58,819 bases of DNA, taken from assembly GCF_006152145.1 (NCBI RefSeq), contig NZ_VDFV01000020.1:1-58819 (forward strand), given 5' to 3'. Below are positions 2,188 through 9,225 of this stretch, piece after piece; position 1 is the first letter of the stretch; every line of letters begins with the position of its first letter. The stretch comes from Rubellimicrobium roseum. GTDB taxonomy: Bacteria; Pseudomonadota; Alphaproteobacteria; Rhodobacterales; Rhodobacteraceae. A program made the translations under genes and the position numbers. The notes beneath the pieces were generated by a model that worked only from the letters and a program-made list of their open reading frames with translations, had not been told where the DNA came from and ran no database searches.

Positions 2188-2219
2188 TTGCACGAAAGCG
2201 GCATGAACATTACCTGAAC
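2188..2219 (+). promoter_or_regulatory. LexA-type SOS promoter of the radical SAM repair gene
   Basis: GAAC (2205-2208), seven bases ATTACCT, then GAAC (2216-2219): an exact match to the alphaproteobacterial LexA box GAAC-N7-GAAC (GTTC-N7-GTTC on the other strand). It overlaps a promoter with -35 TTGCAC (2188-2193), a 17-base spacer and -10 TACCTG (2211-2216). The predicted +1 falls on the A of the ATG at 2223, so the transcript should be leaderless and LexA should block the -10 directly. The same arrangement recurs before the next gene. Confidence 0.8.
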
Positions 2220-2222
2220 GTT

Positions 2223-3449
2223 ATGACAGCCCTGACCCTCCAAGAGAAGCTCGCGATCCTGTCGGACGCGGCGCGCTACGATGCCTCCTGCGCCTCCTCG
2301 GGCACAGCCAAGCGCGATTCGCGCGATGGCAAGGGCCTGGGGTCGACGGACGGCAACGGCATCTGCCACAGCTTCACACCGGACGGCCGCTGCGTGTCGC
2401 TCCTCAAGATCCTGATGACCAACTTCTGCATCTTCGACTGCGCCTATTGCGTGAACCGGGTGTCGTCGAACGTGCAGCGCGCCCGCTTCACGCCCGAGGA
2501 GGTCGTGGAACTCACGCTCGAGTTCTATCGGCGCAACTACATCGAGGGGCTGTTCCTGTCCTCGGGCATCATCAAGAGCCCGGACGACACCATGCGCGAC
2601 ATGGTCCGCATCGTCCGCACGCTGCGGGTGGAGCACGATTTCCGCGGCTACATCCACCTCAAGACGATTCCTGGCGCATCGCCGGAACTCGTCGCCGAGG
2701 CGGGGCTCCACGCCGACCGCCTTTCGGTCAACATCGAGCTGCCAACGGAGGCCAGCCTCGCCGCCTTTGCGCCCGAGAAGGACCCCGCCGAGATCCGCCG
2801 GCACATGGCCGACCTTCGCCTGCGCAAGGAGGCCGCCTCGGATACGACGCTGAAGGGCACCCCGGCGCCCAAGTTCATTCCCGCCGGGCAGTCCACGCAG
2901 ATGATCGTCGGCGCCGATCCGACCGACGACGCCACGATCCTGAAGCAGTCCGCGCGCCTTTACGGCTCCTACGGGCTCAAGCGCGTCTACTATTCTGCCT
3001 TCTCGCCCATCCCCGACGCCACGGCCAAGCTGCCGCTGGTGCAGCCTCCCCTCCTGCGCGAGCATCGGCTGTATCAGGCGGACTGGCTCATGCGATTCTA
3101 CGAGTTCGCGCCCGAGGAGATCGCCTCGCAAGGCAATCTCGACCTCGACCTCGACCCCAAGCTTGCCTGGGCCTTGCAGCACCGCGACCGCTTTCCGGTG
3201 GACGTGCAGCGGGCCGACCGCGAGATGCTGCTGCGCGTGCCGGGCTTTGGAACCAAGTCGGTGGACCGCATCCTGCGCACACGCCGCCACCGGACGCTCC
3301 GTTACGATGACCTCCTGCGCATGGGGACGACGCTGAAGAAGGCCCGGCCTTTCATCGCGCTTACCGATTGGAGCCCTGGCGCACTCACCGACCACAAGGA
3401 TCTGCGTGCCCGCTTCGCGCCCGAGCCACGGCAGCTGTCCCTGTTCTGA
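2223..3449 (+). CDS. Putative DNA modification/repair radical SAM protein
   Basis: A 408-residue radical SAM enzyme of the family that accompanies UdgX (TIGR03916-like). The cluster-binding motif CIFDCAYC (Cys69, Cys73, Cys76) is intact, with further conserved cysteines at 23, 48 and 57. A helix-hairpin-helix segment near residue 340 (LRVPGFGTKSVDRIL) suggests DNA binding. The frame is open upstream, but the start at 2223 gives the family-typical N-terminus MTALTLQEKLAILSDAARYD and sits 3 bases after the LexA box. The family is predicted to act on DNA lesions using a 4Fe-4S cluster and S-adenosylmethionine, but the reaction is not established. It is followed after 84 bases by the UdgX fusion with its own matching promoter. 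Confidence 0.88.
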   Translation: MTALTLQEKLAILSDAARYDASCASSGTAKRDSRDGKGLGSTDGNGICHSFTPDGRCVSLLKILMTNFCIFDCAYCVNRVSSNVQRARFTPEEVVELTLEFYRRNYIEGLFLSSGIIKSPDDTMRDMVRIVRTLRVEHDFRGYIHLKTIPGASPELVAEAGLHADRLSVNIELPTEASLAAFAPEKDPAEIRRHMADLRLRKEAASDTTLKGTPAPKFIPAGQSTQMIVGADPTDDATILKQSARLYGSYGLKRVYYSAFSPIPDATAKLPLVQPPLLREHRLYQADWLMRFYEFAPEEIASQGNLDLDLDPKLAWALQHRDRFPVDVQRADREMLLRVPGFGTKSVDRILRTRRHRTLRYDDLLRMGTTLKKARPFIALTDWSPGALTDHKDLRARFAPEPRQLSLF

Positions 3450-3498
3450 TCCCGCCACGCTCCGGGACCCCTTGCCAGACTCGGGCGTTGCTCTCACG

Positions 3499-3530
3499 TT
3501 GCGACTCGGATGCGCGAACAATACATGAAC
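3499..3530 (+). promoter_or_regulatory. LexA-type SOS promoter of the DUF4130-UdgX gene
   Basis: GAAC (3516-3519), seven bases AATACAT, GAAC (3527-3530): a second perfect box. The -35 is TTGCGA (3499-3504), the spacer is 17 bases and the -10 is TACATG (3522-3527), placing +1 on the A of ATG 3534. Spacing from box end to ATG (3 bases) and promoter geometry are the same as for the preceding gene. An in-frame ATG at 3510 lies upstream of the box and is therefore unlikely to be the real start. Confidence 0.8.
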
Positions 3531-3533
3531 TCC

Positions 3534-4982
3534 ATGCCCCATGTGACGCTTCCCAAGGTCGGCACGGCCGAGGCCTGGCGCGAGGCCGCGCGCGCCTGCC
3601 TTTCGGCCCGCATCCCGCCCGAAGGGATCACCTGGAGCCGCGGCCCGACCGAGGCCGTGCTCTTCACCGAGGACGAGGCGCCGCCCGCGGCCAAGGTCGG
3701 CGCCATCCGCGTGCCCGAGAGCTTCGTCCACCTCGCATCTCAGGTCGTCTGGCACAGCCACCCCGAGCGGTTCGCCCGCCTTTACGCCGTCCTTTGGCGA
3801 CTGCGGACCGAGCCCCAGCTCATGCAGGACGCCGCCGACCGCGATCTCGTGGCGCTCCGGCAGATGGAGCGGGCCGTCCATCGCGATCTTCACAAGCTCA
3901 AGGCATTCGTGCGCTTCCGCGAGGTCGGCGAGCGCGCAGCCTCCCGCCGCAAGTTCGCCGCCTGGTTCGAGCCCGCGCACCATACGCTCGAACCCGCGGC
4001 CCCCTTCTTCGCCAGACGCTTCGCGGACATGGACTGGCTCATCGCCACTCCCGACCTCGTGGCCCGCTTTGAGGATGGCGTAGTGACATTCGAGGAGGGC
4101 GCCGAGCGTCCCGACCTCCCCGACGACGCAGCCGAGGACCTGTGGCTCACCTACTTCCGCCACATCTTCAATCCGGCGCGCGTCAAGGTCGACCGGATGC
4201 TCGCGGAAATGCCCAAGAAGTACTGGAAGAACCTCCCCGAGACCGCCGCGATTCCCGATCTCCTCCAGACGGCCGAATCCCGCGTCCGCGCCATGGCCGA
4301 GGCCGCGCCGACCCGTGCGCCCTTCTACGCCAAAGCCATCGCCGCCCGCCCCAAGCAGCCTGCCGCGCCTCCGCCCGACTCGGGCTCGCTCGCCGGCCTG
4401 CGCGCCGAGGAGGCCGCCTGCACACGCTGCCCCCTGTTCAGCGAGGCCACGCAGGTCGTCCCCGGCGAGGGGCCGCCCGATGCGCCCCTGATGCTGGTGG
4501 GCGAGCAGCCGGGCGACCAGGAGGACCTTGCAGGCCGTCCCTTCGTGGGTCCCGCGGGCCAGCTTCTCGACGACATCATGGTCCAGGCCGGCATCGACCG
4601 GCGCCGCGTGTTCCTCACCAACGCCGTCAAGCACTTCAAGTACACGCTCAAGGGCCGCCATCGACTGCACCAAAGCCCCAACGGCAGCGAGATCTCGGCC
4701 TGCCAATGGTGGCTCCGGCAGGAGATCGACCTCGTGAAGCCCCGGCTTCTCGTGGCCTTGGGGGCCTCCGCCGCCGAAAGCCTCACCGGATCACGCGATG
4801 GCATCCTGAAGCGGCGGGGCCAGATCGAGGACGGGCCCGAGGGCCTGCCCGTCTTCCTGACCGTGCACCCGAGCTTTCTCCTCCGCCTGCCCGACCCCGT
4901 GGCGCGCGAGATGGAGACCGAGCGCTTCCGCGATGACCTCGCCGCCGCCCGCGAGCATCTGGAGCGCCTGCTCGCCGCCTGA
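3534..4982 (+). CDS. DUF4130 / UdgX-family uracil-DNA binding fusion protein
   Basis: A 482-residue fusion. Residues ~1-250 match the TIGR03915/DUF4130 domain that partners the radical SAM protein. Residues ~285-482 are a family-4-like uracil-DNA glycosylase domain of the UdgX type: Cys pair CTRCPLF, motif GEQPGDQEDLAGRPFVGPAG, the UdgX-specific loop GRHRLHQSP whose His should form the covalent bond to deoxyribose at an abasic site, and the second motif HPSFLLR. UdgX proteins excise uracil and stay covalently attached to the DNA through that His (established for the mycobacterial member). Start at 3534 is chosen because it follows the LexA box and predicted +1. It probably works with the upstream radical SAM enzyme. 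Confidence 0.9.
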   Translation: MPHVTLPKVGTAEAWREAARACLSARIPPEGITWSRGPTEAVLFTEDEAPPAAKVGAIRVPESFVHLASQVVWHSHPERFARLYAVLWRLRTEPQLMQDAADRDLVALRQMERAVHRDLHKLKAFVRFREVGERAASRRKFAAWFEPAHHTLEPAAPFFARRFADMDWLIATPDLVARFEDGVVTFEEGAERPDLPDDAAEDLWLTYFRHIFNPARVKVDRMLAEMPKKYWKNLPETAAIPDLLQTAESRVRAMAEAAPTRAPFYAKAIAARPKQPAAPPPDSGSLAGLRAEEAACTRCPLFSEATQVVPGEGPPDAPLMLVGEQPGDQEDLAGRPFVGPAGQLLDDIMVQAGIDRRRVFLTNAVKHFKYTLKGRHRLHQSPNGSEISACQWWLRQEIDLVKPRLLVALGASAAESLTGSRDGILKRRGQIEDGPEGLPVFLTVHPSFLLRLPDPVAREMETERFRDDLAAAREHLERLLAA

Positions 4983-6363: not shown

Positions 6364-7461
6364 TCAGGTGTTGAACAGGAAGTGCATCACGTCGCCGTCC
6401 TTGACGACGTAGCTCTTGCCCTCGGCGCGCAGCTTGCCCGCGTCCCGCGCCCCGGCCTCGCCGCCATAAGTCACGTAGTCGTCGTAGGCGATGGTCTCGG
6501 CCCGGATGAAGCCCTTCTCGAAGTCGCCGTGGATCACCCCAGCCGCCTGCGGGGCCAGCGTCCCCTGCCCGATCGTCCAGGCCCGCGCCTCCTTGGGTCC
6601 GACCGTGAAGTAGGTCTGGAGGTGCAGGAGTTCGTAGCCCGCGCGGATCAGCCGGTCGAGCCCGGCCTCCTCCAGCCCCATCGTCTCTAGGAACTCCGTC
6701 TGCTCCTCGGGCGGAAGCTGGGCGATCTCCTCCTCGATCCGGGCCGAGATCACGACATGGCTGTTGCCCTCGGCGCGGGCCATCTCGGCCACGCGGGCCG
6801 AGTAGGCGTTTCCCTCGGCCGCATCGTCTTCGTTGACGTTGCAGACGTAGAGCACGGGCTTGGAGGTCAGGAGCTGCAGCAGCCGCCACGCCCGCCGCTC
6901 GTCGTCGCTGACCTGCACCGTTCGCGCGGGTTTGCCATCGGACAGCGCGGCTTGGGCGCGCTTGAGCAGCACCTCCTGCTCCACCGCCTCCTTGTCGCCG
7001 CCCTTGATCTTGCGCTGGATGTTCTGGAGCCGCCGCTCGACCGACTCGAGGTCCGCCAGCATCAGCTCGGTCTCGATGGTCTGGGCGTCCGCAACGGGAT
7101 CGACGCGGCCTTCGACGTGGGTGATGTCCCCATCCTCGAAGCAGCGCAGCACATGGGCGATGGCATCCGTCTCACGGATGTTCGCGAGGAACTGGTTCCC
7201 CAACCCCTCCCCTTTGGACGCGCCCTTCACCAGCCCCGCGATGTCCACGAAGGTCATCCGCGTCGGGATGATCTGGCGCGACTTGGCCAGTTCCGCCAGC
7301 CTGTCCAGCCGGGGGTCGGGCACCGCCACCTCACCCACGTTGGGCTCGATGGTGCAGAACGGGAAGTTGGCGGCCTGCGCGGCGGCCGTGCGCGTCAGCG
7401 CGTTGAACAGGGTGGATTTGCCCACGTTGGGCAGCCCCACGATCCCCATGCGAAAGCCCAT
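6364..7461 (-). CDS. ychF: Redox-regulated ATPase YchF (Obg-family)
   Basis: A 365-residue full-length YchF. The G1 loop is [15 protein letters not shown] near residue 10, followed by [12 protein letters not shown], the switch region [17 protein letters not shown], and a C-terminal TGS domain ending with [10 protein letters not shown]. YchF is an ATP-hydrolysing translation-factor GTPase relative that binds ribosomes. The start [16 protein letters not shown] is the family standard. It is transcribed away from the VOC1 gene, whose SOS-type promoter lies 63 bases upstream of this start; the shared intergenic region is short. Confidence 0.95.
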
Positions 7462-7523: not shown

Positions 7524-7553
7524 CTTGGGAACAAAACAGGAACGTGGTAGTTT
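7524..7553 (+). promoter_or_regulatory. LexA-type SOS promoter of the first VOC gene
   Basis: GAAC (7529-7532), seven bases AAAACAG, GAAC (7540-7543), a perfect LexA box. It lies over the spacer of a promoter with -35-like TTGGGA (7525-7530) and -10-like TAGTTT (7548-7553) 17 bases apart. This 30-base module matches the promoter before the second VOC gene at 23 of 30 positions. The translation start is 40 bases after the box. Confidence 0.75.
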
Positions 7554-7583
7554 ATGAGTCGCCCCAAGGGAAAGGAATCGGTC

Positions 7584-7931
7584 ATGACCATTCCCCGCAT
7601 CCGCATCGAGGGCCTGGACGAGGCGCGGCGCTCCTATGCCGCGATCTTTCGCCCCCCGGCCCGCTCCCGCGTCCTTTACACGGCCATACGGACCCGCTCG
7701 GGCTGGCGCCGCCTCGCCGATCCCGCGCGAACCGAACCCGGTCACGCCGTGGCGCTCACGCTCTCCGACCCGGGTGAAGGGCGGCGCGTGTTCGACGCCC
7801 TAGCCATTGGGGGGCGCGTCGAGACGCCTTACCAGCCCACGGTCTGGTCGCCGGGCTTCGGACGCCTCATCGATCGCTGGGGCACGCGCTGGATGGTGGA
7901 TGCGATGCCGGCGCCGCGTGGCGGGGCCTAA
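7584..7931 (+). CDS. VOC-fold (PhnB/glyoxalase-like) protein, internally shortened paralogue
   Basis: A 115-residue relative of the two following VOC genes. The C-terminal half aligns closely: GEGRRVFDALAIGGRVETPY and WSPGFGRLIDRWGTRWMVD match the second gene's EGRRLFDALADGGAIEMPYE and WSPGFGAFTDRFGTRWMID. About 25-30 residues after the first helix are missing, and the conserved VMHG of the paralogues reads VLYT, removing its His. ATG 7584 is preferred over the in-frame ATG 7554 because a purine-rich stretch precedes it and it matches the paralogue N-terminus. It may be degenerate or have changed function. Its stop overlaps the convergent Pmp3-like gene by 4 bases. Confidence 0.7.
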   Translation: MTIPRIRIEGLDEARRSYAAIFRPPARSRVLYTAIRTRSGWRRLADPARTEPGHAVALTLSDPGEGRRVFDALAIGGRVETPYQPTVWSPGFGRLIDRWGTRWMVDAMPAPRGGA

Positions 7932-8131
7932 CGGTCGTATCGCCGGGCACGCCGGTCCTCCTGCCGCTGCCAGATGATGATCCAGGCGAGCAGCACGAAG
8001 ATCGGATGTCCCAACCCGCCAGAGAAGATGATGGCGGGCACCCAGAACAGGAACACCACGACGGCCAGAAAGGGCCGACCTGCAAGCAGGATCGACAAGG
8101 GCGGGAGGAGAAGGGCGAGCAGGTAGTTCAT
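7928..8131 (-). CDS. Small membrane protein, YqaE/Pmp3-like
   Basis: A 67-residue protein beginning MNYLLALLLPPLSILLAG. It has two hydrophobic segments separated by a short polar turn, then a basic tail (WQRQEDRRARRYDR). The LLPPL motif and two-helix layout resemble the Pmp3/YqaE proteolipid family, which is linked to membrane potential and stress in other organisms. The start at 8131 removes an unlikely polar N-terminal extension. It converges with the first VOC gene, and its upstream region abuts the second VOC promoter. Confidence 0.6.
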   Translation of the reverse strand: MNYLLALLLPPLSILLAGRPFLAVVVFLFWVPAIIFSGGLGHPIFVLLAWIIIWQRQEDRRARRYDR

Positions 8132-8205
8132 GTCCCACCATCTAGGTGCGCGACGGTCCTCCTTCACCCGGCATCGGCAGAAAATGACCTAAGGGCAACT
8201 CGGCG

Positions 8206-8235
8206 CTTTGGAACGAAACATGAACATGGTAACCT
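8206..8235 (+). promoter_or_regulatory. LexA-type SOS promoter of the second and third VOC genes
   Basis: GAAC (8211-8214), seven bases GAAACAT, GAAC (8222-8225): the fourth perfect LexA box. A -35-like TTGGAA (8208-8213) and -10-like TAACCT (8230-8235) flank it. A ribosome binding site GGAGG (8251-8255) precedes ATG 8264. Alignment with 7524-7553 shows 23 of 30 identical bases, so gene and promoter were probably duplicated together. Confidence 0.78.
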
Positions 8236-8263
8236 GACGCCACCCAACCCGGAGGACGACGCC

Positions 8264-8695
8264 ATGACCCCGATTCCTTATCTCTTCTTCAAGGGCACCT
8301 GCGAAGAAGCGCTGCGCGCCTACGCCCGCATCTTCGGCTCGCCCGAGCCCGAGCTGATGCGCGAGCGCGATGCCCCCGAAGGGCAGTCGATGGGCGGCCA
8401 CCCCGATCACGTCATGCATGGCTCGGTGAAGATCGGCGACGGCCTGCTCTACGCCTCCGACTGGTCGCAGGCGCAGCCGATGGCAGGCAATTCCATCTGC
8501 CTCACCGTCCGCGACACGGCCGAGGGCCGCCGTCTGTTCGACGCCCTCGCCGACGGCGGCGCGATCGAGATGCCCTACGAGCCCACCTTCTGGTCCCCCG
8601 GCTTCGGCGCCTTCACCGACCGCTTCGGCACCCGCTGGATGATTGATACCGAACCGCAACAGGCCATGGCCGATCCGGCCTTTGCCATGGCCTGA
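8264..8695 (+). CDS. VOC family protein, PhnB/YjdN-like
   Basis: A 143-residue member of the vicinal oxygen chelate fold, PhnB branch. It has an N-terminal PYLFFKGTCEEALRAYARIFG, a middle VMHGSVKIGDGLLYASDW, and a C-terminal WSPGFGAFTDRFGTRWMID. Members often bind small molecules or metals; some sequester drugs such as bleomycin or mitomycin. The substrate here is unknown. ATG 8264 has a good Shine-Dalgarno and lies 38 bases after the LexA box. The third VOC gene follows after 65 bases and is probably in the same transcript. SOS control of this gene is inferred from the box. Confidence 0.85.
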   Translation: MTPIPYLFFKGTCEEALRAYARIFGSPEPELMRERDAPEGQSMGGHPDHVMHGSVKIGDGLLYASDWSQAQPMAGNSICLTVRDTAEGRRLFDALADGGAIEMPYEPTFWSPGFGAFTDRFGTRWMIDTEPQQAMADPAFAMA

Positions 8696-8760
8696 GCGGC
8701 GCCGCGCCCCATCTTGCCCAAGGCCGGGCACCCCTGCCCGGCCAAGGACCCGAGGCTCCC

Positions 8761-9225
8761 ATGCCCACGATCCCCTATCTCCACTTCCGGGGCGACTGCG
8801 CCGAGGCGCTGGCCTTCTACGCAGGCGCGCTGGGCGGCACCGACCTCGCCCTCTTGCGCTACGCCGACAGCCCCAACGCCTCCGAGGCGGCCAAGGGCTC
8901 CGATCGCGTCATGCACGGCCAGCTTCGCCTGGGCGACGGAATGCTCATGGCCTCCGACGTCCCTCCGGGGATGGAAGGCCACCCGCAGCAGGGCGTCTCG
9001 GTCATGCAGACCTTTCCGGAACCCGCGGCAGCACATCAGGCCTTTGATCGCCTGACCGATGGCGGCACGGTCATCCAGCCCTTCGCGCCGACCTTCTTCT
9101 CGCGCGGCTTCGGCATGGTCCGCGACCGCTTCGGCACCCATTGGATCATCTCCACGGCACCCGAGGCGGCGTCACAGTCCGCCGACCCCGCCGCCGTGGC
9201 CGAGACCGAGGCGCACCCGACCTGA
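8761..9225 (+). CDS. VOC family protein, PhnB/YjdN-like
   Basis: A 154-residue paralogue of the preceding gene: [20 protein letters not shown] at the start, [18 protein letters not shown] in the middle, and [19 protein letters not shown] near the end, followed by an Ala/Glu-rich tail. The VMHG His and the C-terminal metal-side Asp/Arg pattern are present. It is the third VOC gene in the row, with no promoter of its own visible in the 65-base gap, so it is likely co-transcribed with the second gene from the SOS promoter at 8206-8235. Ligand unknown. Confidence 0.85.

Follow-up and report, generated by a model that had tools for sequence, protein, structure and literature searches.

Organization of the VOC locus

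The window, that is, the whole stretch of 58,819 nucleotides of Rubellimicrobium roseum DNA that was analyzed, contains three mutually homologous VOC genes beside a divergent ychF gene (Table 1).

Table 1. Genes and promoter features of the VOC locus (positions refer to the window)
Feature	Position	Strand	Remarks
ychF, divergent neighbor (context)	6364..7461	-	
LexA box of VOC1, GAACAAAACAGGAAC	7529..7543	+	perfect GAACN7GAAC; 68 bases from the divergent ychF start
VOC1 promoter TGnTA, putative extended -10-like element	7545..7549	+	read by eye
VOC1, 115 aa	7584..7931	+	shortened VOC domain; Tyr replaces the conserved VMH His
LexA box of VOC2, GAACGAAACATGAAC	8211..8225	+	perfect GAACN7GAAC
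VOC2 promoter TGnTA, putative extended -10-like element	8227..8231	+	TG and TA invariant in 8/8 genomes
VOC2, 143 aa, PhnB/YjdN-like	8264..8695	+	PF06983, PF00903
VOC3, 154 aa, older PhnB-like paralogue without its own box	8761..9225	+	65 bases behind VOC2

All three VOC genes exhibited coding constraint. In VOC1, codon positions 1 and 2 were more conserved than the third, indicating that VOC1 is a coding gene; an extra in-frame ATG lies at 7554, and the start kept in the relatives is that at 7584. PhnB-like VOC proteins are widespread, and we know of no function for them. VOC2 and VOC3 matched PF06983 nearly over its full length, with scores of 32.3 and 32.1 (gathering threshold, 24), and PF00903 was passed as well. 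The Pfam scan of VOC1 yielded no hit at E 0.001, and VOC1 matched NF007537 in part only. The cut-off of this YjdN equivalog (122) was missed by VOC1 (44.3), VOC2 (71.8), and VOC3 (59.4), and the VOC proteins are therefore not YjdN itself. The closest solved chain was 1u6l (E 3.3e-28), which is named a hypothetical protein. The Rubellimicrobium genes differ from the PhnB/YjdN-like family in carrying LexA boxes and in including VOC1, which is shortened and lacks the His.

The VMH His was retained in all Rubellimicrobium sequences of VOC2 (8/8) and VOC3 (5/5), and among the aligned sequences of other genera, it was absent from two (L019 and L059). In each of the four VOC1 sequences, Tyr occupied this position and the loop was shortened. 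Asp66 and Asp119 were invariant in all 40 rows of the alignment, VOC1 included.

LexA boxes and putative promoter elements upstream of VOC1 and VOC2

A sequence-only reading of this DNA had placed perfect LexA boxes at 7529-7543 and 8211-8225, and a pattern search confirmed both. The box-to-gene spacing that it gave, 40 bases for ATG 7584 and 38 bases for ATG 8264, was likewise correct, and its 23 matches between the two promoters were reproduced over the 30-base stretches. GAACN7GAAC occurred six times in the window against an expectation of 1.05, a count reached in none of 100 shuffles; the spacers of two of the six boxes (those at 372 and 11931) are richer in GC. The whole genome (4.85 Mb) contains 102 matches, with no excess over the reversed control pattern (61+41 vs 60+42), and the bare pattern is therefore weak evidence. 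The case for the VOC boxes rests instead on position, sequence, and conservation. By chance, 0.0026 boxes would be expected in the 122-base intergenic stretch and 0.007 in the 332-base one.

Scanning the VOC promoters with a generic sigma-70 consensus produced no match, and no standard terminator was detected either; such consensus scans are poorly suited to alphaproteobacteria. The leader of VOC1 and its first codons (GAAAGGAATCGGTCATGACCATTCCC, window 7570-7595) were invariant in 4/4 species and better conserved than the gene downstream. An RNA structure in this leader was considered and rejected because the fold was not unusual (z 0.51).

Conservation of the boxes within Rubellimicrobium

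We compared eight Rubellimicrobium genomes (Roseobacteraceae, Rhodobacterales), including that of the window. VOC2 was present in all eight, each time with a perfect box upstream, although the identity to the VOC2 of the window ranged from 50% to 79%. The box lay 37-46 bases from the ATG in seven genomes. In the remaining one (G005), additional DNA separates the two, and use of this promoter is uncertain because the box sits 181 bases from the ATG. Across the eight VOC2 promoters, aligned without gaps, the mean majority share was 100% in the GAAC columns vs 64% in the spacer; it was 79-80% over the 10 bases flanking the box in each direction and 50-55% beyond them. Five of the seven spacer positions varied freely between the invariant half-sites. 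The TTG directly before the box was nearly invariant, and the TG and TA after it were invariant (8/8). The arrangement looks like a LexA site between a -35 element and an extended -10 element.

VOC1 was found in four of the eight genomes, every time with a perfect box, and the distance between this box and the ychF start was always 68 bases; two of the four genomes without it are <90% complete. One of the four VOC1 promoters, that of G005, lacks the TG of TGnTA. In G003 and G004, the VOC2 box was kept, and no ychF start was found in the 3.1 and 1.5 kb upstream. Absence of the boxes from close relatives had been proposed as grounds for refuting LexA control; LexA control withstood this check, as VOC2 carried the box in 8/8 genomes and VOC1 in 4/4.

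VOC3 was intact in five of the eight genomes. In G002 and G003, it shares one base with the VOC2 stop; it follows VOC2 after 65 bases in the window, 567 in G007, and 657 in G004. Given this variable spacing, shared control is likely in some species only; in the window, the 65-base gap would possibly allow cotranscription of VOC3 with VOC2. The VOC3 relative of R. thermophilum (L066, about 3492-3870) shows an apparent frame break in the assembly.

VOC loci of other genera

In a family survey with one genome per genus, a VOC2-like gene was identified in 95 of 394 genomes at E 1e-15, two of the 95 being Rubellimicrobium. Upstream DNA was covered for 90 loci in 89 of the 93 non-Rubellimicrobium genomes (leaving out G167, G274, G352, G392, and several second copies): 25 loci within 200 bases, 60 within 300-350 bases, and 5 as whole loci. 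None of the 90 loci exhibited a perfect box. As a control, 26 of 30 recA promoters of the family, that of our own genome included, carried a perfect box in 320-base stretches. LexA boxes before VOC genes thus held throughout the sampled Rubellimicrobium but not as a general trait of Rhodobacterales.

Degenerate boxes outside the genus were considered and rejected; a 7-of-8 site was present in 7 of 60 stretches from other genera vs about 20% of mononucleotide shuffles, which is no signal. Within 200 bases, 0/24 loci from other genera had a 7-of-8 site, and L040 had one 7-of-8 site and no perfect one. Two perfect boxes outside promoters were also set aside: in G021, one (L030) precedes a second VOC copy by about 1.1 kb, and in G071, the other falls within the VOC gene itself. 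In three other genera (G071, G395, and G013), box-less VOC genes lie next to a divergent ychF, with their starts 100-133 bases away from it, an arrangement also seen in Rubellimicrobium.

We further scanned genome contigs of 84,980 species for a box followed by a VOC-like start. The scan returned 37 stretches, and six of these contained VOC genes, all from Rubellimicrobium; the remaining 31 did not look like VOC genes. Because the pattern required a single type of VOC start, located 22-52 bases from the box, it would miss others, for example that of G005, if it is in the collection. On the basis of these comparisons, LexA control of the VOC genes was most likely gained in Rubellimicrobium, probably at a locus that adjoins ychF without a box in at least three other genera; its loss elsewhere would be the less economical account.

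Duplication history of the VOC genes

The sequence-only reading had also proposed that gene and promoter were duplicated together. In the VOC tree, VOC1 fell among the Rubellimicrobium VOC2 sequences (weak support, 65/47) on a long branch of 0.8, in line with this proposal for VOC1 and VOC2; VOC3 fell outside, grouping with genes of other genera (support 99/96). Inclusion of VOC3 in the same recent duplication was accordingly rejected, and on the tree VOC3 is an older paralogue. The 23/30 promoter match is insufficient as proof of duplication. Among box-centered 30-mers of 16 genomic boxes, compared in box orientation (120 pairs), the mean was 15.7 matches, and the imuA/umuD pair also reached 23. 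VOC1 and VOC2 may represent a gene-plus-promoter duplication.

The SOS regulon of the same genome

Boxes were identified in the same genome at the recA, lexA, uvrA, umuD, and uvrD genes and at an imuA homologue. The VOC1 box and that of the imuA homologue agree at all 15 positions, and the VOC1 box shares its form with those at recA, uvrA, umuD, uvrD, parE, parC, priA, and nrdJ; in the box of lexA, the spacer is GC-rich. These genes were read beside 25 genomic box stretches picked by eye for AT-richer spacers, and several of the stretches lack a convincing gene, their boxes probably being chance occurrences. In NCBIfam scans of 13 proteins (10 and then 3, one of the latter from the window), lexA, recA, umuD, parE, priA, and nrdJ scored above the cut-offs, as did a PA0069-type radical SAM gene, a Bcr/CflA efflux gene, and the TIGR03916 radical SAM gene of the window. 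UvrA and the UvrD/PcrA helicase remained below their cut-offs because the stretch ends within the gene; parC, also cut short by the stretch end, passed a subfamily model only, and the ImuA homologue stayed below its equivalog cut-off (56.5 vs 150).

With respect to membership in the LexA (SOS) regulon, the VOC promoters carry a box of the type used by this organism, the box is kept in the orthologous promoters of close relatives (8/8), and genes for both LexA and RecA are present in the genome along with boxes of this type.

Several further boxes were observed. A perfect box at window 2205-2219 lies 3 bases ahead of the TIGR03916 radical SAM gene (2223-3449), and another at 3516-3530 overlaps the start of a DUF4130-UdgX frame (3510-4982); this repair pair looks SOS-controlled from its boxes. 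Perfect boxes also accompany parE, parC, and nrdJ, and another separates priA from a divergent reading frame (L111, L114, L116, and L118); topoisomerase IV and the B12-dependent ribonucleotide reductase may belong to this SOS regulon. A perfect box 24 bases before the Bcr/CflA-family efflux gene (L126) makes an SOS-induced exporter possible. The imuA-type box and leader occur on two contigs (L110 and L131); either the operon may be present twice, or the assembly may contain a duplicate.

The Caulobacter LexA consensus is given as GTTCN7GTTC in PMC12700426. Read on the other strand, it is GAACN7GAAC, the same direct repeat as in the VOC boxes. The Rubellimicrobium case differs from the alphaproteobacterial LexA regulon in that the VOC link is limited to one genus; no VOC/PhnB target was found among the matches listed, as far as the sources were available. 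Among the literature matches listed, none linked VOC, PhnB, or glyoxalase genes to LexA control. RegPrecise lay outside the search, as did the alphaproteobacterial LexA survey of 2004 (cited in PMC6473078) and supplementary material such as the Caulobacter table of 47 SOS genes, and an earlier listing in these sources is possible. The word glyoxalase did not occur in the main texts of PMC6473078 (Dinoroseobacter LexA) and PMC12700426 (Caulobacter SOS), and PMC13384398 and PMC9380542 contained no matches for the terms looked up.

Discussion

The sites, their positions, and their conservation (VOC2, 8/8; VOC1, 4/4) support the LexA control proposed by the sequence-only reading. We estimate a probability of approximately 85% that the LexA (SOS) regulon of Rubellimicrobium includes VOC1 together with the VOC2-VOC3 unit. 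We infer the promoter elements, LexA binding, and induction at these genes from the DNA sequence. In undamaged cells, LexA would occupy GAACN7GAAC between the -35 region and the extended -10 element (TGnTA) and block transcription; after DNA damage, RecA-driven cleavage of LexA would free the VOC promoters. The products would most likely be small cytoplasmic VOC dimers, and VOC1 might be a diverged partner or a binding-only form, a tentative suggestion.

This placement suggests that the VOC proteins may help the cell to withstand chemicals that damage DNA, or the products of these chemicals. A damage-linked small-molecule role is the most economical inference from LexA control, and it is a reasonable possibility, at somewhat less than even odds, that the proteins bind, or else convert, a small reactive molecule that is present while DNA is being damaged.

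Alternatively, the LexA sites could be real and the VOC proteins could have a housekeeping role, such as general carbonyl detoxification, with SOS control an incidental drift fixed in one genus. The box-less state of the examined homologues of other genera suggests that the basic role of the protein is independent of SOS control, and the patchy occurrence of VOC2-like genes in the family also speaks for this alternative. However, retention of the box in all eight species despite the divergence of VOC2, and in all four with VOC1, points to selection on the control, and we consider incidental drift rather unlikely.

The bleomycin- and mitomycin-binding VOC resistance proteins bind the DNA-damaging drug; to our knowledge, they are not LexA-controlled. 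By analogy, the SOS-induced VOC set might bind such a drug itself. Both groups belong to the VOC superfamily by PF00903, loss of the conserved His from VOC1 would fit metal-free binding, and with a boxed Bcr/CflA efflux gene in the genome, drug handling may belong to the regulon. The nearest families are nevertheless PhnB/YjdN and not the drug-binding proteins, which, judging from the family scans, form another subfamily; the analogy therefore extends to the superfamily only, and drug sequestration appears improbable. Chance matches to GAACN7GAAC, which the genome-wide parity with the reversed pattern would permit, are a negligible prospect, since the conservation across the genus (8/8 genomes, invariant half-sites around a variable spacer) makes a chance origin untenable and the VOC1 box equals the imuA box.

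Within the preferred reading of LexA control, the VOC set could constitute a chemical arm of SOS, binding or destroying the damaging agent or a reactive product of the damage; VOC2 and VOC3 carry the conserved His, and the His-less VOC1 may pair with them. We regard this extension as unlikely but worth stating; if it is true, the SOS response would remove the cause of the damage besides repairing the lesion. LexA control of the VOC genes would be a well-bounded case of recruitment into the SOS regulon, for which the box-less homologues at the ychF locus of other genera serve as the comparison. The LexA placement across the sampled genus provides a clean clue that PhnB-like VOC proteins matter during DNA damage.
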